The position numbers and the translations under genes are program-made. Below, piece by piece: positions 18,200-55,948 of a stretch of 64,000 nt of DNA (the first letter of the stretch is position 1; each line of letters begins with the position of its first letter). The notes beneath the pieces were generated by a model that saw nothing but the letters and a program-made list of their open reading frames with translations, had not been told where the DNA came from and ran no database searches. The stretch is from the NCBI RefSeq assembly GCF_024055725.1, contig NZ_JAMXMX010000017.1:62001-126000 (forward strand), in the 5' to 3' direction. The DNA comes from Actinoallomurus spadix (lineage in GTDB: Bacteria > Actinomycetota > Actinomycetes > Streptosporangiales > Streptosporangiaceae).

Positions 18200-18533
18200 A
18201 ACGTCTCCGTTGCCGGTTTTGTGGGTGTGAAACGGGATTCGAACGCCCGGAATCGCCGCGTTCGGTGACCGCCCGCGCCGACCTCCGTCCGCGCTCGGAT
18301 TCTTTCATCGCCGCGCGTGAGGCGCCGGGTGTGACGCGTACTCGGTATGCCTCGGATCGAAGAGGTCAGGGGTGCCCTCGCCGGTCTATCGTCTCCATCC
18401 TCGCACTCAGGGAGCTACCTCGTATTTCGGGCTCGGCCGACGGGGTGCCCGGTGCCAAGTCGAGGCCAAGATGTGGCCCGCCGGGCGAGTTTCGGTCGCG
18501 AGCACCGGTCCCGACCGATTAGTGTCGCCGCAC
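18200..18533. promoter_or_regulatory. 334-bp divergent promoter region glgE/glgP
   Basis: No gene is supported here; the in-frame extension of glgP upstream to 18372 looks non-coding. TAGTGT at 18520-18525 lies 8 nt before the glgP GTG and looks like a leaderless -10. TATCGT at 18387-18392 is a second plus-strand -10 candidate. No clear operator was found. Confidence 0.45.
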
Positions 18534-21131
18534 GTGAAGGCGATCCGCAGATTCACCGTCCGCTCCGTCCTGCCCGAGCCGCTGCAGCCGCTCGAGGAAC
18601 TCGTTCTCAACCTGCGCTGGTCATGGCATCCGGAGACGCTCGAGCTCTTCGAATCGGTCGATCCGGACCTGTGGGAGGCGACCCGGCACGACCCGGTGCG
18701 CCTGCTCGGCGAGGTCTCGCCCGAGCGGCTGTCCGCTCTCACCGGTGACCGGCGTTTCCTGCGCGCGCTCGGCGACGCCGTCGACGACCTCCGCGAGTAC
18801 GTCACCGCCCCGCGCTGGTACCAGAGACTCACCGACGCCCCCACGGCGATCGCCTACTTCTCCCCGGAGTACGGCATCGCCGCGGCGCTGCCGCAGTACT
18901 CCGGTGGCCTGGGCATTCTCGCCGGTGACCACTTGAAGACCGCCAGCGATCTGGGTGTGCCGATCGTCGGGGTCGGATTGCTGTACCGCCATGGTTACTT
19001 CTCCCAGTCCCTCTCGCCGGACGGCTGGCAGCAGGAGCGCTACCCCCCGATCGACCCGGCCGGGCTCCCGCTGACGCTCCTGCGCGAGGCCGACGGCACG
19101 CCGGCACGGGTCGGCGTCGGCCTCCCCGAGGGACGCACCCTCAGCGCCCAGATCTGGATCGCGAAGGTCGGCCGCGTGCCGTTGCTCCTCCTCGACTCCG
19201 ACGTCGAGGAGAACGACCCGGTGGCCCGGGACGTCACCGACCGCCTGTACGGCGGCGGCACCGACCACCGCCTGCTCCAGGAGATGCTGCTCGGCATCGG
19301 CGGCGTCCGCGCCATCCGCGCCTACTCCCGCATCACCGGCAACGCCGCCCCCGAGGTCTTCCACACCAACGAAGGCCACGCCGGCTTCCTCGGCCTCGAG
19401 CGCATCCGCGAGTACATCGAGCAGGGCCTGACCTTCGACGAGGCCCTGGAGGCCACCCGGGCGGGCACGGTCTTCACGACCCACACCCCCGTCCCGGCCG
19501 GCATCGACCGGTTCCCGCGCGAGCTGATCGAGCGCTACTTCGGCGGCTCCAACGAGGAGGGCAGCCTCCCCGCCGACCGCATCCTCGCGCTCGGCGCCGA
19601 GTCCTACGAAGAGGGCGACCCCGCCGTCTTCAACATGGCGGTCATGGGCATGCGCCTGGCGCAGCGCGTCAACGGCGTCTCCGAACTGCACGGCCACGTC
19701 AGCCGCGAGATGTTCGGCGGCCTGTGGCCCGGGTTCGACACCGACGAGGTCCCGATCGGCTCGATCACCAACGGCGTCCACGGCTCGACGTGGGTCGCGC
19801 CCGAGATCATCGACCTGGCCCGGCGCGAGCTGCCCGACATCGTCGAGCTCGGCCGCGGCTGGGAGGGCGTCGAGAAGGTCCCCGCGGCCGAGATCTGGCG
19901 CATCCGCCGGACCCTGCGCGCCCGCCTCGTCGAGGACGCCCGGCGGCGGCTGCGCGAGTCCTGGCGCCAGCGCGGCGCCAGCGAGGCCGAACTGACCTGG
20001 ATCGACGATGCGCTCGACCCGGACGTCCTGACGATCGGCTTCGCGCGCCGCGTCCCGTCGTACAAGCGGCTCACCCTGATGCTGCGCGACCCGGAGCGGC
20101 TCAAGTCGATCCTGCTCGACCCCGAGCGGCCGGTGCAGATCATCATCGCCGGCAAGGCGCACCCGGCCGACGAGGGCGGCAAGCGGCTGATCCAGGACAT
20201 CGTCCGGTTCAGCGACGACCCCGCCGTGCGGCACCGGATCGTCTTCCTGCCCGACTACGACATGGCCCTCGGCCAGTCGCTCGTCCAGGGCTGCGACGTC
20301 TGGATGAACAACCCGCTGCGCCCGCTGGAGGCCTGCGGCACGTCCGGCATGAAGGTCGCCCTCAACGGCGGCCTGAACCTCTCCATCCGCGACGGCTGGT
20401 GGGACGAGTGGTTCGACGGCAACAACGGCTGGGCGATCCCGTCCGCCGACCGCGCCGACGACCCGGACCGCCGCGACGACATCGAGGCACAGGCCCTCTA
20501 CGAGCTGATCGAGGACCACGTCACCGCCCTGTTCTACGACCGCGCGGGCGAGGGCGGGACGCCGCGCCGCTGGCTGGAGATGGTCAAGCACACGCTGGCC
20601 TCCCTCGGCCCGAAGGTCCTCGCCGGGCGCATGCTCCGCGACTACGTCCAGGAGCTGTACGCCCCAGCGGCCGCCTCGGCCCGCCGCCTGTCCGCCGACG
20701 GCAACGCCGGCGCCAAGGCGCTCGCCACCTGGCGGCACCGGGTCGCCAAGGCGTGGCCGGCCGTGTCGGTCGAGCACGTCGAGTCCACCGAGGCGGGCAA
20801 GACCCCGCACCTGGGCACGCGCCTGACCGTACGGGCCACGGTCCAGCTCGGTGAGCTGCGGCCGGACGACGTCGCCGTCGAGGTGGCGTACGGCCGGGTC
20901 GACGACCATGACGCCCTGGTGCAGCCGTCGTACCTGGAGCTGAGCGAGGCCGAGGACCTCGGCGAGAGCCGGTTCCGCTTCACCGGCGAGGTCCCGCTGG
21001 ACCGGACCGGGCCGTTCGGCTACAGCGTCCGCGTCGTGCCCCGGCACGACCTGCTGGCCTCCCGTGCGGAGACGGGCCTGATCGCCCTGCCGCCGGCCCC
21101 GATCGGCATGACCAACGGCGACCTGCGCTGA
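18534..21131 (+). CDS. glgP: Alpha-glucan (glycogen/maltodextrin) phosphorylase
   Basis: 865 aa from the GTG at 18534, which gives the N-terminus VKAIRRFTVRSVLPEPLQPL typical of the actinobacterial GT35 branch. The PLP-lysine motif is CGTSGMKVALNGG. GGLGILAGDHLKTASDLG and NEGHAGF are active-site segments. It releases glucose-1-phosphate from alpha-1,4-glucan using phosphate, so it opposes the GlgE synthetic operon transcribed away from it. A further C-terminal region (about 760-865) resembles the DUF3417-associated layout; the DUF3417-type N-terminal segment is also present. Confidence 0.93.
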   Translation: MKAIRRFTVRSVLPEPLQPLEELVLNLRWSWHPETLELFESVDPDLWEATRHDPVRLLGEVSPERLSALTGDRRFLRALGDAVDDLREYVTAPRWYQRLTDAPTAIAYFSPEYGIAAALPQYSGGLGILAGDHLKTASDLGVPIVGVGLLYRHGYFSQSLSPDGWQQERYPPIDPAGLPLTLLREADGTPARVGVGLPEGRTLSAQIWIAKVGRVPLLLLDSDVEENDPVARDVTDRLYGGGTDHRLLQEMLLGIGGVRAIRAYSRITGNAAPEVFHTNEGHAGFLGLERIREYIEQGLTFDEALEATRAGTVFTTHTPVPAGIDRFPRELIERYFGGSNEEGSLPADRILALGAESYEEGDPAVFNMAVMGMRLAQRVNGVSELHGHVSREMFGGLWPGFDTDEVPIGSITNGVHGSTWVAPEIIDLARRELPDIVELGRGWEGVEKVPAAEIWRIRRTLRARLVEDARRRLRESWRQRGASEAELTWIDDALDPDVLTIGFARRVPSYKRLTLMLRDPERLKSILLDPERPVQIIIAGKAHPADEGGKRLIQDIVRFSDDPAVRHRIVFLPDYDMALGQSLVQGCDVWMNNPLRPLEACGTSGMKVALNGGLNLSIRDGWWDEWFDGNNGWAIPSADRADDPDRRDDIEAQALYELIEDHVTALFYDRAGEGGTPRRWLEMVKHTLASLGPKVLAGRMLRDYVQELYAPAAASARRLSADGNAGAKALATWRHRVAKAWPAVSVEHVESTEAGKTPHLGTRLTVRATVQLGELRPDDVAVEVAYGRVDDHDALVQPSYLELSEAEDLGESRFRFTGEVPLDRTGPFGYSVRVVPRHDLLASRAETGLIALPPAPIGMTNGDLR

Positions 21132-31466: not shown

Positions 31467-32342
31467 GTGCCGAACGAAGCGCTGCCGCCCGTGGCACAGG
31501 CGCGGCTCGGTCAGGCCCGGCAGGGCGGCACCTGGACCTCCGGCCTGAGCGTGGAGGAGTTCGCGGCGCTGCGGTCCGTCGGGTTCGAGCCGGTCGGCCA
31601 GGTGATGGGCAGCACGGTCTACAACCTGGGGCTGTTCTACCGGTCCTCGGCGAACTGCGGGTACGTGCCCGCCTTCTTCGGCGGCGGGGCCACGACGACG
31701 GTTACGTCGAGCGGGCCTGCGTGGAAGGGCGGCTTCGGCGCCTACATCGACACGCTCTACCGTGCGCGGCGCACAGCCATGGACCGGATGGCGGCCGAGT
31801 GCGCCGCCCTGGGCGGCGACGGCGTCGTGGCCGTCGACCTGACGATCGCGCCGTTTCAGGGGGCGGCGCACCATCTGGAGTTCCAGGCGATCGGCACGGC
31901 CGTGCGCGCCGCCGGGCCGGTCCGGCCGGGCCGGGTCTTCCTGTCCCATGTCGGCGGGCAGGAGTTCGCGAAGCTGATCGAGACCGGCTGGGTGCCGGTC
32001 GACCTCGCGATCGGCGCCTCCGTCGGCATCCGTCACGACGACTGGCGGACGAACCGGTCGGCCCGCAGGTTCGCGCCCGCACAGGAGATCGACGGCTGGA
32101 CCGAGCTGCTGGCGGTCACCCGGCACGACGCCCGGACGCGCCTGCACGCCGACGCGAGGCGTACCGGCGCGGACGGCGTCGTCGTCTCCGACATCGACCT
32201 GCGCGTCGAGGAGCGCCCCTGCTCCGCCTCCAGTCAGCAGCACGACCACATCGTGGAGACCACGATCCTCGGCACCGCGATCGCCGAGTTCCGTGTCCCG
32301 CATCGCCCGATCCGCCCGTTGACGATCATGAGGTTGACGTAG
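31467..32342 (+). CDS. Tandem YbjQ-like (heavy-metal-binding-domain type) protein
   Basis: 291 aa containing two diverged copies of a YbjQ-like domain. The first (about 25-145) follows EFAALRSVGFEPVGQVMGST, AMDRMAAECAALGGDGVVAV and EFQAIGTAV; the second is about 155-285. YbjQ folds are pentamer-forming in other bacteria and were named for putative metal binding; function is not established. The gap to the next gene is zero (TAG then ATG), so it is in an operon with 32343 and 33166. GTG start. Confidence 0.7.
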   Translation: MPNEALPPVAQARLGQARQGGTWTSGLSVEEFAALRSVGFEPVGQVMGSTVYNLGLFYRSSANCGYVPAFFGGGATTTVTSSGPAWKGGFGAYIDTLYRARRTAMDRMAAECAALGGDGVVAVDLTIAPFQGAAHHLEFQAIGTAVRAAGPVRPGRVFLSHVGGQEFAKLIETGWVPVDLAIGASVGIRHDDWRTNRSARRFAPAQEIDGWTELLAVTRHDARTRLHADARRTGADGVVVSDIDLRVEERPCSASSQQHDHIVETTILGTAIAEFRVPHRPIRPLTIMRLT

Positions 32343-33158
32343 ATGACCGATCCTGTCGCCCAGGGAGTCCCCGCCGACGCGATGACCCGCCTCGCGGGGC
32401 TGCGCCCGGGCGCGCCCGGGGGGCTGTTCACCAGCGACCTGTCCGTGAACGAGTTCCTGCTGGTCCGGGAGGCCGGGTTCCGTCCGCTGGGGCTGGTGCT
32501 GGGCAGCTCGATCTACCACGTCGGCATCCAGGTCGGCCGGTGGAGCAAAAATATGGAGCTGGATCAGCTCTCCGGCGCGATGTACCACGCGCGGGAGCTG
32601 GCGATGACCCGCATGGAGGCCGAGGCGGACCAGCTCGGCGCGGACGGCATCGTCGGTGTGCGGCTGCGCGTGGAGTTCCGTGACTTCGGCAGCGACATCG
32701 CCGAGTTCATCGCCATCGGCACGGCGGTCAAGGCCGACGACACGTCCCAGAACTGGCGGAACAACAAGAACCAGCCGTTCACCTCGGACCTGAACGGCCA
32801 GGACTTCTGGACGCTGATCCAGGCGGGGTACGCGCCGCTGGGCATGGTGATGGGCACGTGCGTGTACCACGTCGCGCACCGCCGGCTCGGTGCGGTGCTC
32901 GGCAGCCTGGGGCAGAACGTCGAGATCCCGGAGTTCACCCAGGCGCTGTACGACGCGCGGGAGCTGGCGATGACCCGGATGCAGGCGGAGGCGCAGGCCC
33001 TGCACGCAGAGGGGATCGTCGGCGTCTATCTCGACCAGTTCCACCACCAGTGGGGCGGCCACACGATGGAGTTCTTCGCGATCGGGACGGCGGTCCGGCC
33101 GCTGCGGGCCGATCACGTCATCGCCAAGCCGCAGATGGTGCTCGGGCTGGACCGCTGA
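32343..33158 (+). CDS. Second tandem YbjQ-like protein
   Basis: 271 aa, paralogous to the preceding gene product. Two repeats: about 30-130 (EFLLVREAGFRPLGLVLGSS, AMTRMEAEADQLGADGIVGV, EFIAIGTAV) and about 150-255 (FWTLIQAGYAPLGMVMGTC, AMTRMQAEAQALHAEGIVGV, EFFAIGTAV). The repeats here are closer to each other than in the first protein. No signal peptide or membrane segment. Role unknown; adjacency suggests a hetero-oligomer with the upstream product. Confidence 0.7.
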   Translation: MTDPVAQGVPADAMTRLAGLRPGAPGGLFTSDLSVNEFLLVREAGFRPLGLVLGSSIYHVGIQVGRWSKNMELDQLSGAMYHARELAMTRMEAEADQLGADGIVGVRLRVEFRDFGSDIAEFIAIGTAVKADDTSQNWRNNKNQPFTSDLNGQDFWTLIQAGYAPLGMVMGTCVYHVAHRRLGAVLGSLGQNVEIPEFTQALYDARELAMTRMQAEAQALHAEGIVGVYLDQFHHQWGGHTMEFFAIGTAVRPLRADHVIAKPQMVLGLDR

Positions 33159-33619: not shown

Positions 33620-34462
33620 GTGCGGGTGTTCGTCTCGGTCGACATGGAGGGCGTGTCCGGGCTCACCGATCCGGATGAGATGCGGGCGGGCGGGCGCGGC
33701 TACGAGCGCGGCTGCGAGCTGATGACCGCGGACGCGAACGCCGCGGTGGCCGGGGCGTTCGACGCCGGGGCCGATGAGGTGGTCGTCACGGACGCGCACG
33801 GCAGCACGAAGAACATCCGCGCCGACCTCATCGACGAGCGGTGCACGCTGATCCGCGGGCCGTACCGCCCGCTGCGCATGGGACAGGGGCTCGACACCGC
33901 GCACGACGCGGCGATGTTCGTGGGCTACCACGCCCGCGCGGGCGTGCCGCACGGCGTGCTCAACCACACGTGGATGGGCTATGAGATCCAGAACCTCTAC
34001 CTGAACGGTGAGGTCTGCGGGGAGATCCGGCTGATCGCCGCGCTGGCCGGGTCGATGGGCGTACCGGTCGCGCTCGTGGCGGGCGACGAGGCGGCGTGCG
34101 CGGAGGCCCGCGAGGTGCTCGGCGACGTCGAGACGGTGGCGGTGAAGAAGGGCATCGACCGGTACTCCGCGCAGCTCCTGCCGCCCGCCCGCGCGCAGAC
34201 CCTGATCCGGGAGGCGGCCGGCCGCGCCCTGCGGGACCTGGACCGCCGCCGCCCGTACACGGTGCCGTCCCCGTACACGCTGGGCATCGACTGGGCGTCC
34301 ACGGCGATGGCGGAGTCGTGCGCCATGATCCCGGGCATCAAGCGGCTCGGGCCCCGGTCGGTGGAGTTCACCACCGACGACTACGCCGAGATCGTCGGGG
34401 TGCTGGGCATCATGGCCTCGATCGGCGGCAGCGTCGGCTGCACCGGGCAGCACTACGGCTGA
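33620..34462 (+). CDS. M55 family D-aminopeptidase (DppA-like)
   Basis: 280 aa. The zinc ligands of DppA align: D8 and E10 (SVDMEG), H60 (TDAHGS), H104 (GYHAR) and about E131; H115 (NHTWMG) matches the proposed nucleophile. DppA forms a decamer that cleaves D-Ala-containing dipeptides, so the likely role is recycling of peptidoglycan-derived D-amino-acid peptides. GTG start with GGAGGG upstream. It sits just before the kinase array, and a wall-signal connection is conceivable but unproven. Confidence 0.9.
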   Translation: MRVFVSVDMEGVSGLTDPDEMRAGGRGYERGCELMTADANAAVAGAFDAGADEVVVTDAHGSTKNIRADLIDERCTLIRGPYRPLRMGQGLDTAHDAAMFVGYHARAGVPHGVLNHTWMGYEIQNLYLNGEVCGEIRLIAALAGSMGVPVALVAGDEAACAEAREVLGDVETVAVKKGIDRYSAQLLPPARAQTLIREAAGRALRDLDRRRPYTVPSPYTLGIDWASTAMAESCAMIPGIKRLGPRSVEFTTDDYAEIVGVLGIMASIGGSVGCTGQHYG

Positions 34463-34505: not shown

Positions 34506-35315
34506 ATGAACGCGACGGGAGTTGCGCCGCTGGGCTCGTACGAACTGCTGGAGCGGGTCGGCGAGGGGGCCACGTCCGTGGTGTACCGCGCCACGGACCC
34601 GTTCGGGCGGACGGTCGCGGTGAAGGAGCCGCGGCGGGAGTTCGCGCACGACCCGGCCGTGCGCCGTCGCCTGGCGCGTGAGGCCCGGACGATGGCGCGG
34701 GTGCGCAGCCCGTACGTCGCCGAGGTGTTCGACGCCTGCCTGGACGGCGACCGCCCCCATCTCGTCACCGAGTTCGTCCCCGGAGTGCCGCTGCGCGACC
34801 TGGTGACGACCTACGGGCCGCTGTGGGAGGAGGCGCTGTACGGCTTCGCGGAGCGGTTCGCGCGGGGCCTGGCGGCGGTGCACGGGGCCGGGGTGCTGCA
34901 CCGGGACCTCAAGCCCGGCAACGTCATGGTGCTCGGCGGCATCCCTAAGATCATCGATTTCGGCATCGCGCGGGAGGCGGGGACCGAGGAGGTCACCCAG
35001 CCGGGCGTGCTGACCGGCACGCCGGGCTACGTCGCGCCCGAGCTGATCGACGGCGGGCCCTGCGGCGAGGCGTCCGATGTCTTCTCGTGGGCCGCGACGG
35101 TCGCGTTCGCGGCGACGGGCCGCCCGCCGTTCGGGGCGGGGTCGCTGCACGGCATCTGCTTCCGGGTGCTGCGCGGGGCCGCCGACCTGGACGGCGTGCC
35201 CGAGCCGCTGCTGCCGCTGCTGCGCCGTGCCCTGTCCCGCGACCCGGCCGAACGCCCGGCCGCGGCCTGGCTGACGGGCCGCCTGGCCGAGCGGCGGCCG
35301 GTCCCCGCGTGGTGA
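34506..35315 (+). CDS. Ser/Thr protein kinase 1 of array, soluble
   Basis: 269 aa, only a kinase domain. The glycine loop is GEGATSVVY, then K40 (VAVK), catalytic D134 (LHRDLKPGN) and D151 (DFG), and GTPGYVAPE as P+1 loop; all key residues are present. It lacks the linker and membrane part seen in the three following kinases. The sequence around RSPYVAEVFDA and VTEFVPGVPL is closely shared with them, so the set arose by tandem duplication. Confidence 0.9.
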   Translation: MNATGVAPLGSYELLERVGEGATSVVYRATDPFGRTVAVKEPRREFAHDPAVRRRLAREARTMARVRSPYVAEVFDACLDGDRPHLVTEFVPGVPLRDLVTTYGPLWEEALYGFAERFARGLAAVHGAGVLHRDLKPGNVMVLGGIPKIIDFGIAREAGTEEVTQPGVLTGTPGYVAPELIDGGPCGEASDVFSWAATVAFAATGRPPFGAGSLHGICFRVLRGAADLDGVPEPLLPLLRRALSRDPAERPAAAWLTGRLAERRPVPAW

Positions 35316-35371
35316 CCGGTTCGGCCGGGAAGGCCGTGAGGGGACACATGCCCGGGTATCGTGACGCATCT

Positions 35372-37027
35372 ATGGAGGGGGTCGAGACGTCCGGCGAGAG
35401 CATCGGCCGATACCGCCTGATCGAGAAGATCGGAGAAGGCGGCATGGGGGTCGTGCACCTGGCCACCGACCCCTACGGCCGCAAGGTCGCCGTGAAGGTC
35501 CTGCGGCCCGGTGTCGCCGCCGACCAGACGGCCCTGCGCCGGCTCGCCCGTGAGGTCGACTCCATGCGGCGGGTGCACAGCCCGCACGTCGCGGAGATCG
35601 TCGACGCGGACGTGACGGCCGAGCCGCCCTACGTCGTCACCCAGTTCGTCCCCGGCCGGACCCTGGAGGAGGCGGTCCGCGACGACGGCCCGCTGCGCGG
35701 TGACGCGCTGCAGCGGCTGGCGACGGGGCTGGCCTCCGCGCTGGCCGCCATCCACGACGCCGGCATCGTGCACCGGGACCTGAAGCCGGGCAACGTCATG
35801 TTCCTGGAGAACGGCGAGCCGGTCGTCATCGACTTCGGCATCGCGCAGGGCGTCGACGCGACGCGGCTGACCGCGACCGGGCTCGTGATCGGCACCCCCG
35901 GCTACCTCGCCCCCGAGATCATCGAGGGTGAGGACGCCGGCGCGCCCGCGGACGTCCACGCCTGGGCCGGCACGATCGCGTACGCCGCGACGGGACGGGC
36001 GCCGTTCGGCGGCGGCACGTTCGAGTCGATCTTCTACAAGATCATGGAGGGGCGGCCGGACCTGGACGGCGTGCCCGAGGCGATGCTCCCGGTCGTCCGG
36101 GCGGCGATGGCCCGCAACCCGGCCGAGCGGCCGACCGCGCACGGCCTCGTCGAGCTGACCCGGCGCATCGACGTCAACAGCACCCGGCTGGACCCGCCGT
36201 CGACCCAGACCAAGCGCCTCACCGCCGTCTCGGCCCCGCCGCCGGCCCCGGCCCCGGCGCGCCCGCGCGATTTCGTCGGGCAGCTGCCGCCGGCGCCGCC
36301 CCCGCCGCCTCCGCAGGCGTACGCGCCTCCCGCCTACGGCCCGACGGGGCGACAGGCCGCCCCGCAGGAGCGCTCGCCGGGATACGCGCAGCGCCCGCCG
36401 AAGCCGCCGCGTCCCGACGAGCCGAAGCCGTACGGCGTCTACCGCTTCCTCAGCCTGCTGCTCCTCGTCGCCGGGATCGGGCTGGCCCTGGTGACGCCCA
36501 CGATCGCGCTGATCATCGTGCTCGCCGTCCTGCTGGTGCTGCGGACCGCCGACCGCGGCCACCAGGAGCTCACGTCCAAGCGCACCCGGCGCGGGCCGCG
36601 CTCGGGCGACCTGGTGGCGATCGTCGCCAAGTCGCCGTTCACGGCGGTACGCGCGGCGCTGGGCATGCTGCTGGTCAGCCCGTTGGCGATCATGGCCGCG
36701 GTCGTCGTGCTGCTGATCGGGCTGGCCGCCAAGACCGCGCTGACGATCCCGCACGCGGTGGCGCTGGCCACCGCGGCGTTCGTGATCGTCCAGTGCCTGG
36801 GGCCGGGCAGCGAGCCCGCGCGCCGTCAGCTCGCGCGGTTCTGGGGAGCCGTGCTGCCGAGACGGAACCAGGCCCTCATCGCCCTGGTGGTCATCGGGTT
36901 CGTCGTCTTCCTGCTCGTGTCGTTCGCGCTCAGCCAGACGCCGGACCTGCGGCCGTTCGCGGGCGGCTCGTTCACCCGGAACCTCGCCCACCTCCGCTCC
37001 GGCATCCGGGACCTGCTCGGCGGCTGA
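35372..37027 (+). CDS. Ser/Thr protein kinase 2 of array, with multi-pass membrane module
   Basis: 551 aa. Kinase domain 13-265 with K42, D136 (HRDLKPGN) and D154 (DFG). A Pro/Ala-rich linker (about 285-350) leads to a C-terminal membrane module with about five hydrophobic segments from residue 357 on, including the basic-flanked GPGSEPARRQ motif. Unlike PknB there is no PASTA domain. The ATG at 35372 lies 9 nt after a TATCGT box; an ATG at 35348 with GAGGGG before it is an equally possible start. Ligand and substrates are unknown. Confidence 0.87.
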   Translation: MEGVETSGESIGRYRLIEKIGEGGMGVVHLATDPYGRKVAVKVLRPGVAADQTALRRLAREVDSMRRVHSPHVAEIVDADVTAEPPYVVTQFVPGRTLEEAVRDDGPLRGDALQRLATGLASALAAIHDAGIVHRDLKPGNVMFLENGEPVVIDFGIAQGVDATRLTATGLVIGTPGYLAPEIIEGEDAGAPADVHAWAGTIAYAATGRAPFGGGTFESIFYKIMEGRPDLDGVPEAMLPVVRAAMARNPAERPTAHGLVELTRRIDVNSTRLDPPSTQTKRLTAVSAPPPAPAPARPRDFVGQLPPAPPPPPPQAYAPPAYGPTGRQAAPQERSPGYAQRPPKPPRPDEPKPYGVYRFLSLLLLVAGIGLALVTPTIALIIVLAVLLVLRTADRGHQELTSKRTRRGPRSGDLVAIVAKSPFTAVRAALGMLLVSPLAIMAAVVVLLIGLAAKTALTIPHAVALATAAFVIVQCLGPGSEPARRQLARFWGAVLPRRNQALIALVVIGFVVFLLVSFALSQTPDLRPFAGGSFTRNLAHLRSGIRDLLGG

Positions 37028-37064
37028 CCGACCCGGGGCGCCCCCGACCGACGAAGATCGAACG

Positions 37065-38807
37065 ATGCCAGTGGAGGACGTCCCCGTGGACCAGGTCGGC
37101 CCCTACCGACTCGTCGCGACCCTCGGGAAGGGCGGCATGGGCGTCGTCCACCGGGCGGTCGACGACGCCGGCCGCGAAGTGGCCCTCAAGGTCGTACGAG
37201 GCGAATACGCCGAGGACACGACCTTCCGGCGGCGGCTGGCCCGCGAGGTCGACACGATGCGGCGGGTACGCAGCCCGTACGTCGCCGAGGTCCTCGACGC
37301 CGACGTCGCCGCCGAACGCCCCTACATCGTCACCCGCTTCATCGACGGCCACCCGCTCGACGGCGTCGTCCGCGCCGCCGGCCCGCTGTCCGGCGGCCCG
37401 CTGGCGCGCGTGGCGATCGGCCTGGCCGAGGCGCTGACCGCCATCCACGAGGCGGGCGTCGTCCACCGGGACCTCAAGCCGAACAACGTCATGATGGTCG
37501 ACGGGGCCCCGGTCGTCATCGACTTCGGCATCGCCCACGCGGTGGACGCCGCCCGGCTCACCCGGACCGGGCTGGTCGTCGGCACGCCCGGTTACATCGG
37601 CCCGGAACTGTTCGACGGCAAGGCGCCGGGCCCCGCCGTCGACGTGTACGGCTGGGCGGCGACCGTCGCGTACGCCGCGACCGGGCGCGCACCGTACGGC
37701 GGCGGATCGTTGGAGGCGGTACTCGCCCGCATCCTGTCCGGAAACCCCGATCTGGACGGCGTGCCGCCCTCCCTCGTGCCGCTGCTGCGCACGGCCCTCG
37801 CCCGCGAACCGGAGGCCCGGCCGCCGGCTGCGGAGCTCGCGGCCCGGGTCCGCGCGCTCGATCTCGGCGCCCCGCCGTCCATCGCCGCGACGGCGCTCAG
37901 CCCCGCCGTCGACGCGGCCGGCCCCACCGGGTCGCCGCCGGGCTCCCGGCCCGCCGGCCCCCTCGGCGCGCCGCCGGACTCCGGGTCCTCTGACCCCGCG
38001 GGTGCGCCGCCGGGCCCCGGCCCCTCCGATCCCTCCGGTGCGCCGCCGGACTCCGGGTCCTCCGGCGCCGCCGGTGCGCCGCCGCGCCCTGCGTCCTCCG
38101 ATCCCTCCGGGGCGTCGCCGGGCTCCGGGCCTTCCGGTGCCGCGGCGGCGGGCGGTCCCCGGCCCCCGGCGAGCCCGGCTCCGGGGACGGTCCCGCCGAG
38201 CGCCGCGCCGCGCGTGGCGCTCGGCTGGTACAAGCTGCTCGCCTACCTGGCGATCGTCACGGCCGTGGCGGCCTGTGCCGTGGCCCCCGTCGTCGGCCCG
38301 CCCCTCGTGGTGGTGGCCGCCTGGTACCTGCGGGCGGGGGACTCCGCCGTCCGATCCCGCCGGGTGCCGGTGCGCGGCGTCCAGGACCTGATCCTGGTGC
38401 CCTTCCGCGTGCCGCGGGCGCTGGGCCGGTCGACCGGAGCGCTGGTGCCCGCCCTGCTCTACGCGGCGGTGGCGGCGGGGGTGACCGCCTTGGCGCTGCT
38501 CCTCTGGACCGTCTCGCGCGCCGTGTACTGGCCGGACGCCGTCATCCGGTGGAGCGCGGCGGCGTTCGCGTGGGTGACGCTCGCCGGACCCGGGGTCATG
38601 GGGCCGCGCCGCCAGTCGGTCCGGCTGCTGTCGGCGGCCGCCCAGAGCCGGCTGCGGACCGCGTCGGTGGGCCTGTGCCTCGCCGGGATCACCGCGCTGG
38701 TGGGCGCGGCCGGGTTGCTGCTGCGCCCGCGGTGGTGGCCCATCGGCGACCGGGCCGGGACCATCGTCGATCTCACGGACACGATCGCCAGGCTCCTGCA
38801 CCAGTGA
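37065..38807 (+). CDS. Ser/Thr protein kinase 3 of array, repeat linker and membrane module
   Basis: 580 aa. Kinase domain 13-268 with K42, D136 (HRDLKPNN) and D153 (DFG). Residues 301-360 are five degenerate 12-aa repeats of the GAPPDSGSSDPA type. From about residue 385 the membrane module follows: a first pair of hydrophobic segments ending in WYLRAGD, a basic amphipathic stretch (RRVPVRGVQDLI), further segments, GPGVMGPRRQSV and a final segment ending in RPRWWP. The same module occurs in the orphan gene at 38964 and, more diverged, in kinases 2 and 4. Confidence 0.88.
   Translation: MPVEDVPVDQVGPYRLVATLGKGGMGVVHRAVDDAGREVALKVVRGEYAEDTTFRRRLAREVDTMRRVRSPYVAEVLDADVAAERPYIVTRFIDGHPLDGVVRAAGPLSGGPLARVAIGLAEALTAIHEAGVVHRDLKPNNVMMVDGAPVVIDFGIAHAVDAARLTRTGLVVGTPGYIGPELFDGKAPGPAVDVYGWAATVAYAATGRAPYGGGSLEAVLARILSGNPDLDGVPPSLVPLLRTALAREPEARPPAAELAARVRALDLGAPPSIAATALSPAVDAAGPTGSPPGSRPAGPLGAPPDSGSSDPAGAPPGPGPSDPSGAPPDSGSSGAAGAPPRPASSDPSGASPGSGPSGAAAAGGPRPPASPAPGTVPPSAAPRVALGWYKLLAYLAIVTAVAACAVAPVVGPPLVVVAAWYLRAGDSAVRSRRVPVRGVQDLILVPFRVPRALGRSTGALVPALLYAAVAAGVTALALLLWTVSRAVYWPDAVIRWSAAAFAWVTLAGPGVMGPRRQSVRLLSAAAQSRLRTASVGLCLAGITALVGAAGLLLRPRWWPIGDRAGTIVDLTDTIARLLHQ
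37965..38144 (+). repeat. Five 36-bp degenerate coding repeats in kinase 3
   Basis: The region encodes five consecutive 12-residue units starting GAPP or GASP, a Pro/Ser/Gly-rich linker between the kinase and membrane domains. Unit number is likely to vary between strains. Confidence 0.7.
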
Positions 38808-38963
38808 CGCGCGGCGCGTCGGCCGCGTCGCGCCGGATGCACCTTCGCGGCGCGGTAGTGTGGCACCGCCTTCACGTCCGCCCGATGCGGGACCCCAGCG
38901 ACTTTCCGAGGAGGGAACGGCGTTCCCCTCCGGCCCGTCGGCCGGAGCACGCGCCGCGCACCG

Positions 38964-39626
38964 ATGACGTGGGATGAGACATCCGGCGCGATCTCCGACC
39001 CGCCGCTGGCGGCCGAGGAGACCGTCGACGCCGTCGTCGAGGGCTGGTCACGGCTCTTCACGTACCTCGTCGTCGCCAGCGTGTTCGGGGTCGCCGTCAT
39101 CACGCCGTTCTTCGGGCTCCTGCTGGCGCTGGCGGGCGCGTCCTACCTGCGGGCCGGGGAGCTTCACGCGCGGCGGCACGCCGCCACACCGTTGCGGCTG
39201 ACGGTCGGCCCGCTGACCGCGCCGCTGGACCTCATCCGGGGTGCCGCCGGGACGCTGCTCACCGTGCCGTACGCCGCCGTGTTCGCCGTCGCCGTGCCGA
39301 TGGCGATCATGGCCGCGGCGGCCGTCGACGTCCAGGTCGCCCCGCTCGTCGCGGCCGCCTGGGGTGCCGGGGCCGCGGCGTACGTCCTGCTGGCCGCGCC
39401 GGGCGTCCGGGCGCCGCGCCGGCACCTCGTCCAGGTCTTCACCGTGCTCGCGTACGGCCCGCGCCGGATCGCGGTCATCGGAGCGATCCTGTGCGTGGTG
39501 ACCCTCGCCGTCCTGGCCGCCGCGATCGTGCTCCGGCCGACCTTCGCCCCGATGTACGAGCTGGAGAACTCCATCGCCCAGGAGCTCTCCCGGTTCCAGG
39601 ACTCGATCCAGCAGCGCGTGTCGTGA
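38964..39626 (+). CDS. Orphan membrane protein equal to the kinase C-terminal module
   Basis: 220 aa with about five hydrophobic segments and no kinase domain. It matches the membrane part of kinase 3 in order and motifs: a tight pair of segments ending SYLRAGELHARR (kinase 3: WYLRAGDSAVRSRR), a basic amphipathic segment, two segments, APGVRAPRRHLV (kinase 3: GPGVMGPRRQSV), and a last segment ending RPTFAP. The 155-bp gap before it contains a GGGAACG/CGTTCCC dyad (38913-38927). Either a free subunit that pairs with the kinases or a kinase that lost its catalytic half. Confidence 0.75.
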   Translation: MTWDETSGAISDPPLAAEETVDAVVEGWSRLFTYLVVASVFGVAVITPFFGLLLALAGASYLRAGELHARRHAATPLRLTVGPLTAPLDLIRGAAGTLLTVPYAAVFAVAVPMAIMAAAAVDVQVAPLVAAAWGAGAAAYVLLAAPGVRAPRRHLVQVFTVLAYGPRRIAVIGAILCVVTLAVLAAAIVLRPTFAPMYELENSIAQELSRFQDSIQQRVS

Positions 39627-39689
39627 CCGGGGGCCGGCCGGGCCGAACATTTACGATCATGCGGTAGCCCGTCGACCGCGGAACCCCCC

Positions 39690-41222
39690 ATGACGTCCCT
39701 GCGTGAGAGTCTCGGCCCCTACCGGCTCCTGGAGGAGATCGGTGTCGGCGGCATGGGCGAGGTGCACCTCGCGCTGGCCCCGGACGGCGGCACGGTCGCC
39801 GTCAAGATCCTGCACCCCGCCGTCGCCCGCGACCCGCTCGCCCGCCGCCGCCTCGAGCGTGAGGTCGCGACGATGCGCCGGGTCCGCAGCCCGTACGTCG
39901 CCGAGGTGGTCGACGCGGACTTCACCGGGCGTCGTCCGTACGTCGTCACGCGATACATCCAGGGTCGCTCCCTCGACCTGCGGGTACGCCGCGAGGGCCC
40001 GCTCCGGGGCGGGGCGCTGCCGGCGGTGGCGCGCGGGCTGGCGCGGGCGCTGCACGTGATCCATGCGGCCGGGGTCGTGCACCGTGACCTCAAACCGGCC
40101 AACGTGATCCTCGTCGACCGCGACCCGGTCGTCATCGACTTCGGCCTCGCGCACGTGCTCGACGCGACCCGGCTGACGCGCACGGGCACGGCGATCGGCA
40201 CGCCCGGCTATCTGGCGCCGGAGGTCCTCGACGGGGAGCGGGCCGGGCCGGCCGCCGACGTCTTCTCCTGGGCGGGGACGGTCGCGTTCGCGGCCACCGG
40301 CCGCGCGCCGTACGGGCCAGGGCCCGCGCAGGCGATCTTCTCCCGCGTGCTGCGGGGACGGCACGACCTTCGCGGCATCTCGGGCGACCTGCGGGAGATG
40401 CTCGAGGCCGCGCTGGCGATCGACCCGGAGGTGCGCCCCGGGACCGGTGACCTCCTGGAGGCGCTCGCCGTACGGAACCGCCCGCGGCCGGCCGCGGTAC
40501 CGCGCCGGCCCCGTGCGGTCGCCGCTCCTCCGGACGCTCGCTCCGCGCGGGACGCTTCGCCGGGCCGGGATGCTCTGACGGCCGGAGACGCGGTGCCGGC
40601 CCCGGAGGCCCCGGCGGCGTTGGACGCTCCCGCCGCGCCCGGGGATGAGCCGGCCGGTCCGGCGGCGGGCGGTGCCGTGGGTCCTGAGGACGCGCCGCCG
40701 GGGGACGAGGCGGGCGCCGGTGAGCGGCGCCGCGGCCTGCCGATGCGCCTGCTGCGCGGGACGGCGGCGCTCGCCGTGCCGGCGGCCTGCTACGCCCTGC
40801 CGGTCCTGGCCGTCGCGACGATCCTGTCGGCGTGCGCCGCCGGCTACGCGTGGGACGCGGTGGCGCGCGCCCGCCGCCGGGCGGCGTCCCGGGCCGGCCG
40901 GCTGGCCCGCCTGGGGTCGGTCCTCGCCGCCTCCGTCACGGTTCCGGCGCAGACGGTGGTCCGGCTGGTGGCGCTCGTCGTCGCGATGGTGGTCGGGTAC
41001 GGCGCGGTGCTGGGGATCACCTGGTGGTCGGTCGTGCCGCGTGAGCGGGCCCTCGCGCTGCCCCTCGGAGTGCTCATGGTGGTGGCGGCGGTCGTCCGCG
41101 CGCGTTATGGCCGGGAGCGCCGTCCGGCCCGGCTGGTCCTGGCGGTCCTGGCCGCCGGAGCGCTGGCGCTGGCGGTCGTCGGGATCCCGTTCCCGGCGTG
41201 GTGGCCGGTTACCGCACCCTGA
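39690..41222 (+). CDS. Ser/Thr protein kinase 4 of array, membrane-anchored
   Basis: 510 aa. Kinase domain 9-265 with K39, D133 (HRDLKPAN) and D150 (DFG). An Ala/Pro/Asp-rich linker (about 275-350) is followed by hydrophobic segments and a basic spacer, ending FPAWWPVTAP like kinase 3 (RPRWWPI). Its module is the most diverged of the set. The segment RSPYVAEVVDADFTGRRPYV is nearly identical in kinases 2 and 3. The etfB promoter region follows. Confidence 0.87.
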   Translation: MTSLRESLGPYRLLEEIGVGGMGEVHLALAPDGGTVAVKILHPAVARDPLARRRLEREVATMRRVRSPYVAEVVDADFTGRRPYVVTRYIQGRSLDLRVRREGPLRGGALPAVARGLARALHVIHAAGVVHRDLKPANVILVDRDPVVIDFGLAHVLDATRLTRTGTAIGTPGYLAPEVLDGERAGPAADVFSWAGTVAFAATGRAPYGPGPAQAIFSRVLRGRHDLRGISGDLREMLEAALAIDPEVRPGTGDLLEALAVRNRPRPAAVPRRPRAVAAPPDARSARDASPGRDALTAGDAVPAPEAPAALDAPAAPGDEPAGPAAGGAVGPEDAPPGDEAGAGERRRGLPMRLLRGTAALAVPAACYALPVLAVATILSACAAGYAWDAVARARRRAASRAGRLARLGSVLAASVTVPAQTVVRLVALVVAMVVGYGAVLGITWWSVVPRERALALPLGVLMVVAAVVRARYGRERRPARLVLAVLAAGALALAVVGIPFPAWWPVTAP

Positions 41223-41422: not shown

Positions 41423-42202
41423 ATGAACATCGTCGTCTGCGTGAAGCAGGTTCCCGACACGGCGACCGAACGGAAGCTGCGGTCCGACGACAAGACCCTC
41501 GACCGCGAGGCGGCCGACGGCGTCATCAACGAACTCGACGAGTACGCCGTCGAGGAGGCCTTGACCATCAAGGAGGCCCACGGCGGTGAGGTGACCGTCC
41601 TCACCATGGGCCCGGAGAAGGCCTCGGAGTCGATCCGCAAGGCCCTGGCCATGGGCGCGGACAAGGCCGTTCACCTCTCGGACGAGGCGCTGCACGGTTC
41701 GGACGCGCTGTCGACCTCGTACGCGCTCGCGCAGGTGCTCAAGAAGATCGGCTTCGACATCGTCCTCCTCGGCTCGGAGTCGACCGACGCCCGGACGGGC
41801 ATGCTGGCCGCAATGCTGTCCGAGCGGCTCGGCGTACCCCAGGTGACGCTGGCCAACAAGGTCGAGATCGACGGGTCCTCGCTCAAGGCACAGCGGCTCA
41901 CCGACTACGGCTTCGACCGCGTCGAGGCGAGCCTGCCGGCCGTCGTCAGCGTCGTCGAGAAGATCAACGAGCCGCGCTACCCCTCCTTCAAGGGGATCAT
42001 GGCGGCGAAGAAGAAGCCGGTCGAGAAGCTCGCCGTCGCCGACGCCGAGATCGACGCCGCCAAGGTCGGGCTCGCCGGGGCCTCGACCGAGGTCGTCGAC
42101 TTCGCGGACGCGCCGCCGCGCGAGAAGGGCCAGATCGTCAAGGACGAGGGCGACGGCGGCGTGAAGGTCGCCGAGTTCCTCGCGTCCAAGAAGTTCATCT
42201 GA
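41423..42202 (+). CDS. etfB: Electron transfer flavoprotein beta subunit
   Basis: 259 aa from the ATG at 41423 (GGGAGGG upstream; N-terminus NIVVCVKQVPDTATERKL is the family start). The AMP-binding region and the recognition loop (around ADGVINELDEYAVEEAL) are present. With EtfA it forms the soluble FAD/AMP heterodimer that takes electrons from acyl-CoA and other dehydrogenases and passes them to the membrane quinone reductase. First gene of the etfBA operon, 11 bp before etfA. Confidence 0.95.
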   Translation: MNIVVCVKQVPDTATERKLRSDDKTLDREAADGVINELDEYAVEEALTIKEAHGGEVTVLTMGPEKASESIRKALAMGADKAVHLSDEALHGSDALSTSYALAQVLKKIGFDIVLLGSESTDARTGMLAAMLSERLGVPQVTLANKVEIDGSSLKAQRLTDYGFDRVEASLPAVVSVVEKINEPRYPSFKGIMAAKKKPVEKLAVADAEIDAAKVGLAGASTEVVDFADAPPREKGQIVKDEGDGGVKVAEFLASKKFI

Positions 42203-42213
42203 GAGGCGGGGAA

Positions 42214-43164
42214 ATGCCGGAGATTCTCGTCCTCGTCGACCATGTCGACGGGGAGGTCAAGAAGGTCACCTTCGAGCTGCTGACACTCGCGCGCCGGCAC
42301 GGTGACGCCGCGGCGGTATGGGTCGGCCCGGGCTACGAGGGCGCCAAGGACAAGCTCGCCGAGTACGGCGCGGCCAAGGTCTACGTCGCCGCCGACGAGG
42401 AGCTGACCTCCTACGTCGTCGCGCCGAAGGCCGAGCTGCTGGCGCAGCTCGTCGCCGAGAAGTCCCCGGCGGCGGTCCTCGTCGCCGCGACGGGCGAGGG
42501 TAAGGAGATCGCGGGGCGGCTCGCGGTCAAGACCGGGTCCGGCGTGCTCACCGACGTCGTCGACGTCGCCGACGGCTTCGTCGGCGAGCACTCCATCTTC
42601 GGTGGCGCGATCGTCACGCACGCCAAGGTGGCGACGGGCACGCCGATCATCGCGGTGCGCCCGAACTCCACCGCCGCCGAGGCCGCGCCGTCGACGCCGG
42701 CCGAGGAGCAGGTGTCGGTGACGCTGTCCGACGCGGCCAAGGCCGCCAAGGTCGTCGAGAAGGTCGTCCAGGAGAAGGGCGAGCGCCCCGAGCTGACCGA
42801 GGCCGCGATCGTCGTCTCCGGCGGCCGGGGTGTCGGCGGCGCCGACAACTTCAAGCTCATCGAGGAGCTGGCCGACTCGCTCGGCGCGGCCGTCGGCGCC
42901 TCGCGCGCCGCGACCGACGCCGGCTGGTACCCCCATTCCTTCCAGGTGGGCCAGACCGGCAAGACGGTGTCGCCGCAGCTGTACATCGCGGTCGGCATCT
43001 CCGGCGCCATCCAGCACCGAGCGGGCATGCAGACCTCCAAGACGATCGTCGCGATCAACAAGGACCCGGACGCGCCGATCTTCGAGCTGGTCGACTACGG
43101 CATCGTGGGTGACCTGTTCCAGGTCGCCCCACAGCTGACCGAGGAGATCACCAAGCGCAAGTGA
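42214..43164 (+). CDS. etfA: Electron transfer flavoprotein alpha subunit
   Basis: 316 aa. The C-terminal FAD-binding domain is clear: [41 protein letters not shown] and [10 protein letters not shown]-terminal half carries the ETF alpha/beta fold. Partner of EtfB. In Mycobacterium (fixA-fixB) the pair also precedes a cysteine desulfurase and mnmA. A 19-bp hairpin terminates the operon. Confidence 0.95.
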
Positions 43165-53764: not shown

Positions 53765-55948
53765 ATGGATCGGTTGCGGGCGGGCGATCCGGAGTGGGTC
53801 GGACCGTACCGCCTGCTCGGCAGGCTGGGCGGCGGGGGAATGGGGCAGGTGTTCCTCGGCCTGTCCCGGGGCGGCCGGCAGGTCGCGGTGAAGGTGGTCC
53901 GCCCCGAACTGGCCGACGACGCGCGGTTCCGTGAGCGGTTCGCCGCCGAGATCGCCGCGGCCCGCAAGGTCGGCGGTTTCTTCACCGCGCAGGTCGTGGA
54001 CGCGGACCCCGACGCGGACCCGCCGTGGCTGGTGACCGCCTACGTCCCGGGCCCGTCGCTGGAGCAGGCGGTCCACGAGCACGGTCCGCTGCCCGGCGAG
54101 ACGGTCAGCGTGCTGGGCGCGGGACTGGCCGAAGGGCTGGCCGCCATCCACCGGTGCGGCCTGGTGCACCGGGACCTCAAACCCGGCAACGTGATCCTGG
54201 CCGAGGACGGACCACGGGTCATCGACTTCGGCATCGCCCGCGCCCTCGACGCCACCCACCACACCGCCTCGATCACCGGCACCCCGCCGTTCATGTCCCC
54301 CGAGCAGACACGGGGCCAGGAGATCGGGCCGGCCAGCGACGTGTTCTCCTTCGCGTCGGTGCTGGTGTACGCGGCCACCGGCCGCACACCCTTCGGCGAG
54401 GGCCCCACCGACGCGATCATCTACCGGATCCGGCATGACCCGCCGGACCTGTCCGGCCTGCCCCCGCACCTCACCGGTCTGGTCACCGACTGCCTGGCCA
54501 AGGATCCCGAGAGCCGGCCGAGCGTCGACGACGTCATCGACCATCTCGCCGGTCCGCACATCTCCAGCCGATGGCTGCCTCCGGCCGTCACCACCGCCGT
54601 CGCCGAACGCAGGGCCGAGGCCGACGCGCTTCTCCACCCCTCCCGAGGATCCACCGACGAGACCGGCCGCTGGGGAGCCCACGACCGGGGGCAACGCGGC
54701 GCGGCGAGCGGCGCCGGGAACCCGGGTACCGACCTGGGCCATGCCGAGACCATAGGCCCGAGCGCGTTCGACGGCCGCGAGGCGTCACGGGCCGCCCCAG
54801 GGCCCGCGACCCCGCAGGACCCCGGCCGGGCCGGCCCTGCCGGCCCTGCCGGGCCGGGCGCCCCGGTCCGCCGGTCACGCCTCCGGGCGTCGGTGCTGCC
54901 GGCGTCTGTCCTCCTGGCCGCGGTGGTGGTCGCGGCGACGACGGCGTTCGTGCTCACCCAGAGGCACGGCGGCACGACGCCCGGCCCCGCACCGACTCCG
55001 GCCCAGAGGCGTGGTGGCAGTGGTGGTCACGCCCCGGCCCCGGTGAGTGGAGGTGGCAGTACTCCCACCTGGCACCTGCTGAAAGTGGTCGATCTGAACA
55101 CTACGAACGCGCTCGGGACGGTCGCCTTCAGCCCGGACGGCAAGACCATCGCCGCGGGCGCTCCTGACGACGACAAGATATGGCTGTTCGGCGACACCAT
55201 CGCGGCCCGGACACTCTCCGGTCCCAGCGGAGTGAGCTCGGTGGCGTTCAGTCCGGATGGCCGGACCCTCGCCGCCGGCGGCCACGACGACAAGGTGTGG
55301 TTGTGGGACGTGACCAGCGGCGCTCCCACCGGCCATGCCCTGACCGGTCACACCGACACCGTGTACTCGGTGGCGTTCAGACCGGACGGCAGGACCCTCG
55401 CCTCCGGCAGCGCCGACAAGACGATACGACTGTGGAACACCGCCCCCGGGGCTCCCCTCGGCCATCCCCTCACCGGTCACACCGACAGCGTCTACTCGGT
55501 GGCGTTCAGCCCGGACGGCCGGACCCTCGCCTCCGGCGGCCGCGACACACTGCGGCTGTGGAACACGGCCACTCAGGCTCCGATCGGCCAGGCCATCACC
55601 GGTGGCACCTATTCGGTGGCGTTCAGCCCGGACGGGAAGACCATCGCCTCGGACGGCGATGCCGATGACGTGCGGCTGTGGGACGCGGCCACCGGCAATC
55701 CCGTCGGCCATCCCTTCACCGGTCATACCGACACCGTGTTCTCGGTGGCGTTCAGCCCGGACGGCAGGACCCTCGCGGCCGGCGGCGACGACCAGGAGGT
55801 GCGCCTGTGGAATACCGCCGACGGCGCGCCGATCGGCCAGCCCCTCGGCTACTCGGACGACATCATGGCGATCGCCTTCAGCCCGGACGGCCGGACCCTG
55901 GCCTCCGGGGGTAGGGACGGCAAGGTACAACTGTGGGGACTGAGCTGA
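53765..55948 (+). CDS. Transmembrane Ser/Thr kinase with extracellular WD40 propeller
   Basis: 727 aa. Kinase domain 14-265 with K43, D137 (HRDLKPGN) and D154 (DFG). A Gly/Ala/Pro-rich linker runs to one membrane segment at about 376-397, and residues 433-727 form WD40 repeats (SVAFSPDGRTLASGG, then V-LWNTA), enough for one seven-bladed propeller outside the cell. The blades are very similar even at DNA level. Single-pass layout, so it is a different type from the array kinases at 34.5-41.2 kb. The sensed ligand is unknown. Confidence 0.9.
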   Translation: MDRLRAGDPEWVGPYRLLGRLGGGGMGQVFLGLSRGGRQVAVKVVRPELADDARFRERFAAEIAAARKVGGFFTAQVVDADPDADPPWLVTAYVPGPSLEQAVHEHGPLPGETVSVLGAGLAEGLAAIHRCGLVHRDLKPGNVILAEDGPRVIDFGIARALDATHHTASITGTPPFMSPEQTRGQEIGPASDVFSFASVLVYAATGRTPFGEGPTDAIIYRIRHDPPDLSGLPPHLTGLVTDCLAKDPESRPSVDDVIDHLAGPHISSRWLPPAVTTAVAERRAEADALLHPSRGSTDETGRWGAHDRGQRGAASGAGNPGTDLGHAETIGPSAFDGREASRAAPGPATPQDPGRAGPAGPAGPGAPVRRSRLRASVLPASVLLAAVVVAATTAFVLTQRHGGTTPGPAPTPAQRRGGSGGHAPAPVSGGGSTPTWHLLKVVDLNTTNALGTVAFSPDGKTIAAGAPDDDKIWLFGDTIAARTLSGPSGVSSVAFSPDGRTLAAGGHDDKVWLWDVTSGAPTGHALTGHTDTVYSVAFRPDGRTLASGSADKTIRLWNTAPGAPLGHPLTGHTDSVYSVAFSPDGRTLASGGRDTLRLWNTATQAPIGQAITGGTYSVAFSPDGKTIASDGDADDVRLWDAATGNPVGHPFTGHTDTVFSVAFSPDGRTLAAGGDDQEVRLWNTADGAPIGQPLGYSDDIMAIAFSPDGRTLASGGRDGKVQLWGLS

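Follow-up and report, generated by a model that had tools for sequence, protein, structure and literature searches.

Between positions 34,506 and 41,222 of a 64,000-nucleotide stretch of the Actinoallomurus spadix genome (order Streptosporangiales; RefSeq assembly GCF_024055725.1, contig NZ_JAMXMX010000017.1, positions 62,001 to 126,000 of the forward strand; the window in what follows) lies a tandem array of four serine/threonine protein kinase genes, here called K1 to K4. The order on the forward strand is an M55 peptidase gene, K1, K2, K3, a small gene missed in the first reading of the array, K4, and etfB and etfA, which encode the beta and alpha subunits of electron transfer flavoprotein (ETF). 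The overlooked gene, termed the orphan, encodes the multi-pass membrane module that is attached to the kinase domain in K2 and K3, and no kinase domain at all. The modules of a sister kinase, type B, are its closest kin, and in most copies from Actinomadura and Thermomonospora the catalytic domain of that kinase has decayed. What use is the membrane part of a kinase once the enzyme has gone? Because the orphan keeps the membrane part without the enzyme part, the shared module appears to have a job of its own, probably that of a regulatory partner.

The duplicated kinases

All four kinases belong to the Hanks-type Ser/Thr family (Pfam Pkinase, PF00069). Their kinase domains score 124-141 bits against a cut-off of 31.7, and the catalytic set of GxG, K, alphaC-E, HRD, N, DFG and APE is complete in each, in keeping with the four intact kinase domains noted in a sequence-only reading of the window. 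The near-identical stretches that it listed are present in large part, with HRDLKP and GTPGY in all four kinases and RSPYVAE in K1, K3 and K4, the corresponding stretch of K2 reading HSPHVAE. The 8.0 Mb genome contains 60 Pkinase matches, 59 of them above the cut-off, and in a tree of K1-K4 with 51 of the 56 other matches (the five weakest being omitted) the four form one clade among these 55 kinases with a FastTree support of 0.998. K1-K4 are tandem duplicates of each other, and the duplicated family suspected earlier is confirmed by this clade. A fifth kinase of the window (53765-55948, +), which carries WD40 repeats, is of the ordinary kind and stands outside the array.

Actinobacterial kinases of the AfsK and PknB types usually possess one membrane segment. 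The array kinase domains are closest to the AfsK and PknB models in NCBIfam, but score far under the full-length cut-offs of both, with 158-208 bits against 450 for the PASTA kinases (PknB/Stk1, NF033483) and 171-214 bits against 1300 for AfsK (NF053615), and a Pfam search at E up to 1 detects no PASTA repeats in the array kinases. In place of a PASTA or WD40 sensor there is a multi-pass module some 200 residues long. This substitution had been claimed for three kinases and holds for K2 and K3; K1 is a bare soluble kinase, with no hydrophobic segment above threshold, and K4 gives only a weak hint of the module.

The genes of the array are separated by 32-63 bases, apart from 156 bases upstream of the orphan and 200 upstream of etfB. 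A search for sigma-70 promoters and terminators detected none, a result that is uninformative given the GC-rich DNA.

Table 1. Genes and modules of the array and its flanks (window coordinates)
Feature	Coordinates	Strand	Remarks
M55 D-aminopeptidase	33620..34462	+	PF04951, E 1.1e-97; flanks K1, 43 bases upstream
K1, soluble Ser/Thr kinase, 269 amino acids	34506..35315	+	Pkinase E 8e-41; catalytic set intact; without membrane segment
K2, kinase, Pro-rich linker and A-type module	35348..37027	+	Intact catalytic domain; likely start ATG at 35348, from comparison with relatives
K2 membrane module (A-type)	36392..37024	+	Module profile; tree
K3, intact kinase, low-complexity linker and C-type module	37065..38807	+	
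K3 membrane module (C-type)	38175..38804	+	Module searches; tree
Orphan (ORPH, O-type), module without kinase domain, 220 amino acids	38964..39626	+	Between K3 and K4
K4, intact kinase, linker and hydrophobic C-terminal region from about 40737	39690..41222	+	Module kinship doubtful
etfB, electron transfer flavoprotein beta	41423..42202	+	PF01012, E 2.4e-49; likely start 41423
etfA, electron transfer flavoprotein alpha	42214..43164	+	PF00766 and PF01012

An adjacent pair of YbjQ-type genes (31467-33158, +) precedes these features and is also found upstream of the array in two other loci (L043, L045). Elsewhere in the window a GlgE maltosyltransferase gene (16076-18199, -) stands back to back with a DUF3417/glucan phosphorylase gene (18372-21131, +).

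The membrane module

The modules of K2 and K3 are 25% identical, and with the orphan as query a search of its own genome recovers the C-terminal part of K3 (E 2.8e-14) and K2 (E 2.2e-4). Homology had been expected among three C-terminal regions, those of K2, K3 and K4, and is established for the first two. The membrane region of K4 is missed by the module searches, including that with the orphan in its own genome, is devoid of the PG-x-PRR motif and matches the module only weakly in hhalign (probability 60% over 78 columns), so that the module is secure in two kinases and doubtful in K4. In other genera, which have three array kinases but no K1 (L049-L053), the third kinase is short, and in the five sequences compared (A7) no relationship to the module is seen in its C-terminal membrane part.

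A profile built from the orphan, K2 and K3 modules finds matches in 229 of 250 genomes and 64 of 68 genera of the family. With an 84-row profile matches are found in 36 of the 61 genomes sampled from the order and in 15 of 197 from the class; of these 15, 11 belong to the same family, and the remaining four include two weak matches. Both profiles are incomplete: among seven genomes unmatched by the first profile and checked around etfB, four carry a kinase there that matches the module weakly, the other three (two on short contigs) having none in the stretch examined. These matches across family and order, together with the etfB-anchored loci described below, bear out conservation in Streptosporangiales, which the first reading had put forward as a check.

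The module also matches no described family in the searches made. Searches with the orphan give nothing at E up to 1 in Pfam or at E up to 0.1 in NCBIfam, the latter having been searched with the orphan and the array proteins. Among 84 module copies compared with Pfam the best value is E 0.009, to Abhydrolase_9_N (five copies at E up to 0.1), with a further 15 families each matched by a single copy, and neither PDB sequences, searched with the module, nor PDB structures, searched with its predicted fold, give a significant match. Pfam lacks a description of what is a widespread membrane domain.

The AlphaFold model of the orphan module, based on 84 sequences, is a confident helical membrane fold (predicted local distance difference test, pLDDT, 86.8; predicted template modelling score, pTM, 0.75) with helices at 15-46, 48-71, 76-85, 87-119, 127-144, 149-162, 166-189 and 198-219. 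Using segment limits that we set ourselves, the mean number of lysines and arginines is 3.8 in the N-terminal stretch, 3.6 in loop 64-94, 5.2 in loop 147-168, 0.3 in 119-126 and 2.3 in the C-terminal tail, where acidic residues average 2.8. From these values we infer five membrane passes, with the N-terminus, and hence the kinase side, and two basic loops probably inside and a short C-terminal helix outside. No particular signal is indicated, and the proposal that the module senses lipids, potential or stress did not find support. It may, however, oligomerise the kinases, a second suggestion of the sequence-only reading to which the orphan and the recurrent decay of type B with the module kept lend indirect support.

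Loss and decay of the kinase domain

The orphan is found inside the kinase array in all eight Actinoallomurus genomes. A tree of 59 modules, for which Actinomadura was thinned and distant D-type copies were omitted, resolves four groups: A (K2 and orthologues; support 100/100), C (K3 and orthologues; 99/98), B (the second kinases of Actinomadura, Thermomonospora and others; 95/84) and O (the orphans; 100/100). O and B form one clade (98/94), and an earlier FastTree tree placed the orphans within B, beside the Actinomadura alba group. The tree program warned of long branches meeting between A and C, a region that does not directly touch the O+B branch. An origin of the orphan as a truncated copy of K3 is disfavoured, as the orphan joins B and not C, the O+C clade having a p-value of 0.044 in the approximately unbiased test (p-AU). 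Nor can a kinase remnant be read by eye in the three forward frames of the 156 bases before the orphan.

Decay within type B is graded. At least one key residue is lost in 45 of the 49 named copies: the catalytic lysine has become R in 42 and the HRD arginine G in 41, and the position of the HRD aspartate holds D in 17, A in 14, E in 10, R in 3, S in 3 and G in 2. The DFG aspartate is retained in 47 copies, the next residue being F in 46 and Y in one, and the activation segment is deleted, with 0-5 residues left, in all 28 Actinomadura-type copies aligned. Counting losses only, the tree requires five decay events, and the neighbouring K2-type (A) kinases are intact wherever they are readable whole. 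The Actinomadura type-B proteins are pseudokinases, their presumed inactivity being read from the residues; the kinase fold is kept in the prediction of one copy (L084), which is predicted to be well folded.

Several loci have unusual records or additional kinases. A metagenome-assembled genome titled Glaciihabitans sp. RYN_57 (L101) contains an Actinomadura/Actinoallomurus-type locus in which the type-B kinase is intact; the entry probably bears the wrong name or is a mixture. An extra array protein of about 800-860 amino acids occurs in 11 Actinomadura loci; in L059 (6151-8616), the one locus in which a second kinase domain was looked for, it has two kinase domains in a row and no module, and is perhaps a fusion of K1-like copies. 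In L047 (2800-4548), L057 (1205-3007) and many other Actinomadura loci one more kinase gene follows etfA immediately in opposite orientation and scores much lower with the array kinase profile.

Are the orphan and type B simply relics, in which the kinase decays as the whole gene ceases to be needed? The recurrence of type-B decay fits such a view, as does one Actinomadura genome (L055/L110) in which type B is missing between the A-type kinase and etfB. However, the orphan is under purifying selection, with a ratio of nonsynonymous to synonymous substitution (dN/dS) of 0.28-0.38 in pairwise comparison of three genomes (three pairs), is retained in every Actinoallomurus genome, and has a pseudokinase relative that is predicted to fold well, and we consider gradual loss very unlikely. 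The corresponding ratios are 0.30-0.51 for the K2 module, 0.39-0.64 for the K3 module, 0.20-0.34 for the K4 C-terminal region, 0.10-0.22 for the kinase domains of K2-K4, 0.18-0.25 for K1 and 0.08-0.11 for EtfA. The constraint on the orphan is thus about that of the kinase-attached modules and looser than that of the kinase domains or ETF. Alternatively, the orphan may have left the signalling family to become a membrane protein in its own right, engaged in transport, lipid or envelope work and out of contact with the kinases, which would suit its want of a kinase, its full predicted membrane fold and the long branch (0.68 changes per column) that separates it from type B. Yet it has stayed within the array throughout the genus and its closest relatives are still joined to kinase or pseudokinase domains, which makes this departure improbable.

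A putative partnership, the etfBA link and known systems

On this reading the array, which has expanded by duplication, would be a membrane signalling unit whose common part, the five-pass module, assembles and/or senses in the membrane. K2 would act as the constant catalytic subunit, and the orphan, like the type-B pseudokinases, would use the membrane module to join K2 (and possibly K3), setting kinase activity as a non-catalytic paralogue in the manner of pseudokinase partners elsewhere. Hetero-assembly is the simplest account because the module repeatedly outlives the kinase domain beside an intact sister kinase, and we lean slightly towards the orphan or type-B pseudokinase being a non-catalytic regulatory subunit of K2.

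A number of points count against such a partnership. The O+C clade is only just rejected, and selection on the orphan is not clearly stronger than on the attached modules, being weaker than that on the K2 module in one of the three pairs (0.38 vs 0.30). Of the 49 named type-B copies, two are fully intact and a further two have lost just the alphaC-E or APE residue, so that type B has not abandoned catalysis in every case. A occurs together with B or the orphan in 53 of 53 named loci, a figure biased by the use of an A-type query in the scan. The structure predictions are of single chains, and the linkage to etfB falls short of universal.

What, then, is the significance of that linkage? The module kinases are usually found directly upstream of etfBA. 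In module-anchored loci etfB lies downstream on the same strand in 37 of 40 cases (L038 is at a contig end; L071 and L073 are without etfB in the stretch), and the linkage is seen in 56 of 60 named loci, the remaining four being at contig ends. With etfB as the anchor, 20 more genera of the family were examined, each with a module profile match somewhere and hence not a blind sample; module kinases are directly upstream in 15, four have none there and one is on a short contig, which rules out universal adjacency. One genome from a sister family (L209) has a module kinase upstream of etfB and one from another family of the order (L228) has none. Outside these, etfBA lacks an adjacent kinase in four genomes from other families of the class, and two from other families (L150, L151) have a module kinase with no etfB within the stretch examined. 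As several genera hold a single kinase at this site, between enoyl-CoA hydratase and etfB, the array most likely began as one etf-linked kinase that was then duplicated.

The linkage may be merely positional, an inherited stable neighbourhood of kinases that act on the cell envelope or a distant target. The five unlinked etfB-anchored genera, with L071 and L073, are consistent with this, as are the M55 peptidase on the other side of the array and a gap to etfB that is often 150-290 bases, so that co-transcription is not implied. Against it stand the frequency of the linkage in module-anchored and named loci and its occurrence in the sister family, leaving the positional explanation a serious one, if a little short of an even chance. 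ETF or the quinone pool as the target is a guess from gene position. In the fullest form of the proposal, a membrane kinase complex of homologous multi-pass modules, sensing or positioning through the module, would contain a kinase-less regulator of an active sister kinase and direct its output to electron flow in the ETF branch of respiration, a combination that we regard as rather doubtful.

HER3 and EGFR constitute a pseudokinase-kinase pair, and resemble the proposed unit in that a pseudokinase sits beside an active kinase in the membrane; the likeness is otherwise one of analogy only. HER3 structures appear among the results of the fold check of the type-B pseudokinase (L084). Kinases and pseudokinases are known kinds, but neither the module nor its kinase-less form nor the graded series was found described in the open literature searched; titles and abstract starts of open-licence papers yielded nothing on the module, a kinase-etfBA cluster or Actinomadura pseudokinases, which is weak evidence of absence.

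A precedent in principle is a ChrS variant of Corynebacterium glutamicum that is catalytically dead, heterodimerises with the active sensor kinase HrrS and alters its output (PMC9491836). Here too a dead paralogue works with an active kinase, as in the proposed model, but ChrS is a histidine kinase, its dead form came from laboratory evolution, and the two systems are unrelated by descent.

Bacterial pseudokinases have received little experimental study and the functions of their families are unknown, according to the account that describes the families ActPs1, ActPs2, ActPs3 and DYD (O'Boyle et al. 2025, PMC12599244). There, ActPs2 is characterised by an HRD aspartate changed to N and some 250 extra residues in the activation loop, ActPs3 by completely degraded catalytic motifs and a deleted activation loop, and DYD by a DYD motif with K changed to R. 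Type B shares with these families an actinobacterial origin, a C-terminal membrane region (ActPs2, ActPs3), the K to R change (ActPs2, DYD) and the deleted activation loop (ActPs3). As so described, however, none of them accommodates it. ActPs2 is rejected, as the HRD aspartate is never N in 49 copies and the activation segment has 0-5 residues in 28, with no 250-residue insert; ActPs3, as degradation is incomplete, the deletion being found in 28 of 28 copies yet the DFG aspartate being kept in 47 of 49; DYD, as F and not Y follows that aspartate in all but a few copies; and ActPs1, from which the kept DFG aspartate appears to set type B apart. The HRD arginine to G change is a further difference. 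If the wider proposal were right, rather doubtful as it is, a bacterial pseudokinase partnership would be visible here in all its steps, from an intact kinase to one that has lost the domain entirely. The graded series is a clean natural experiment in which the module must act without its kinase, with the intact neighbouring sister kinase as the obvious partner. Unlike the ActPs and DYD families as there described, it lies within one kinase type, a single orthologous group in a stable neighbourhood, whose kinase domain is intact in some members, decayed to different degrees in others and finally deleted altogether, the membrane module being kept throughout.
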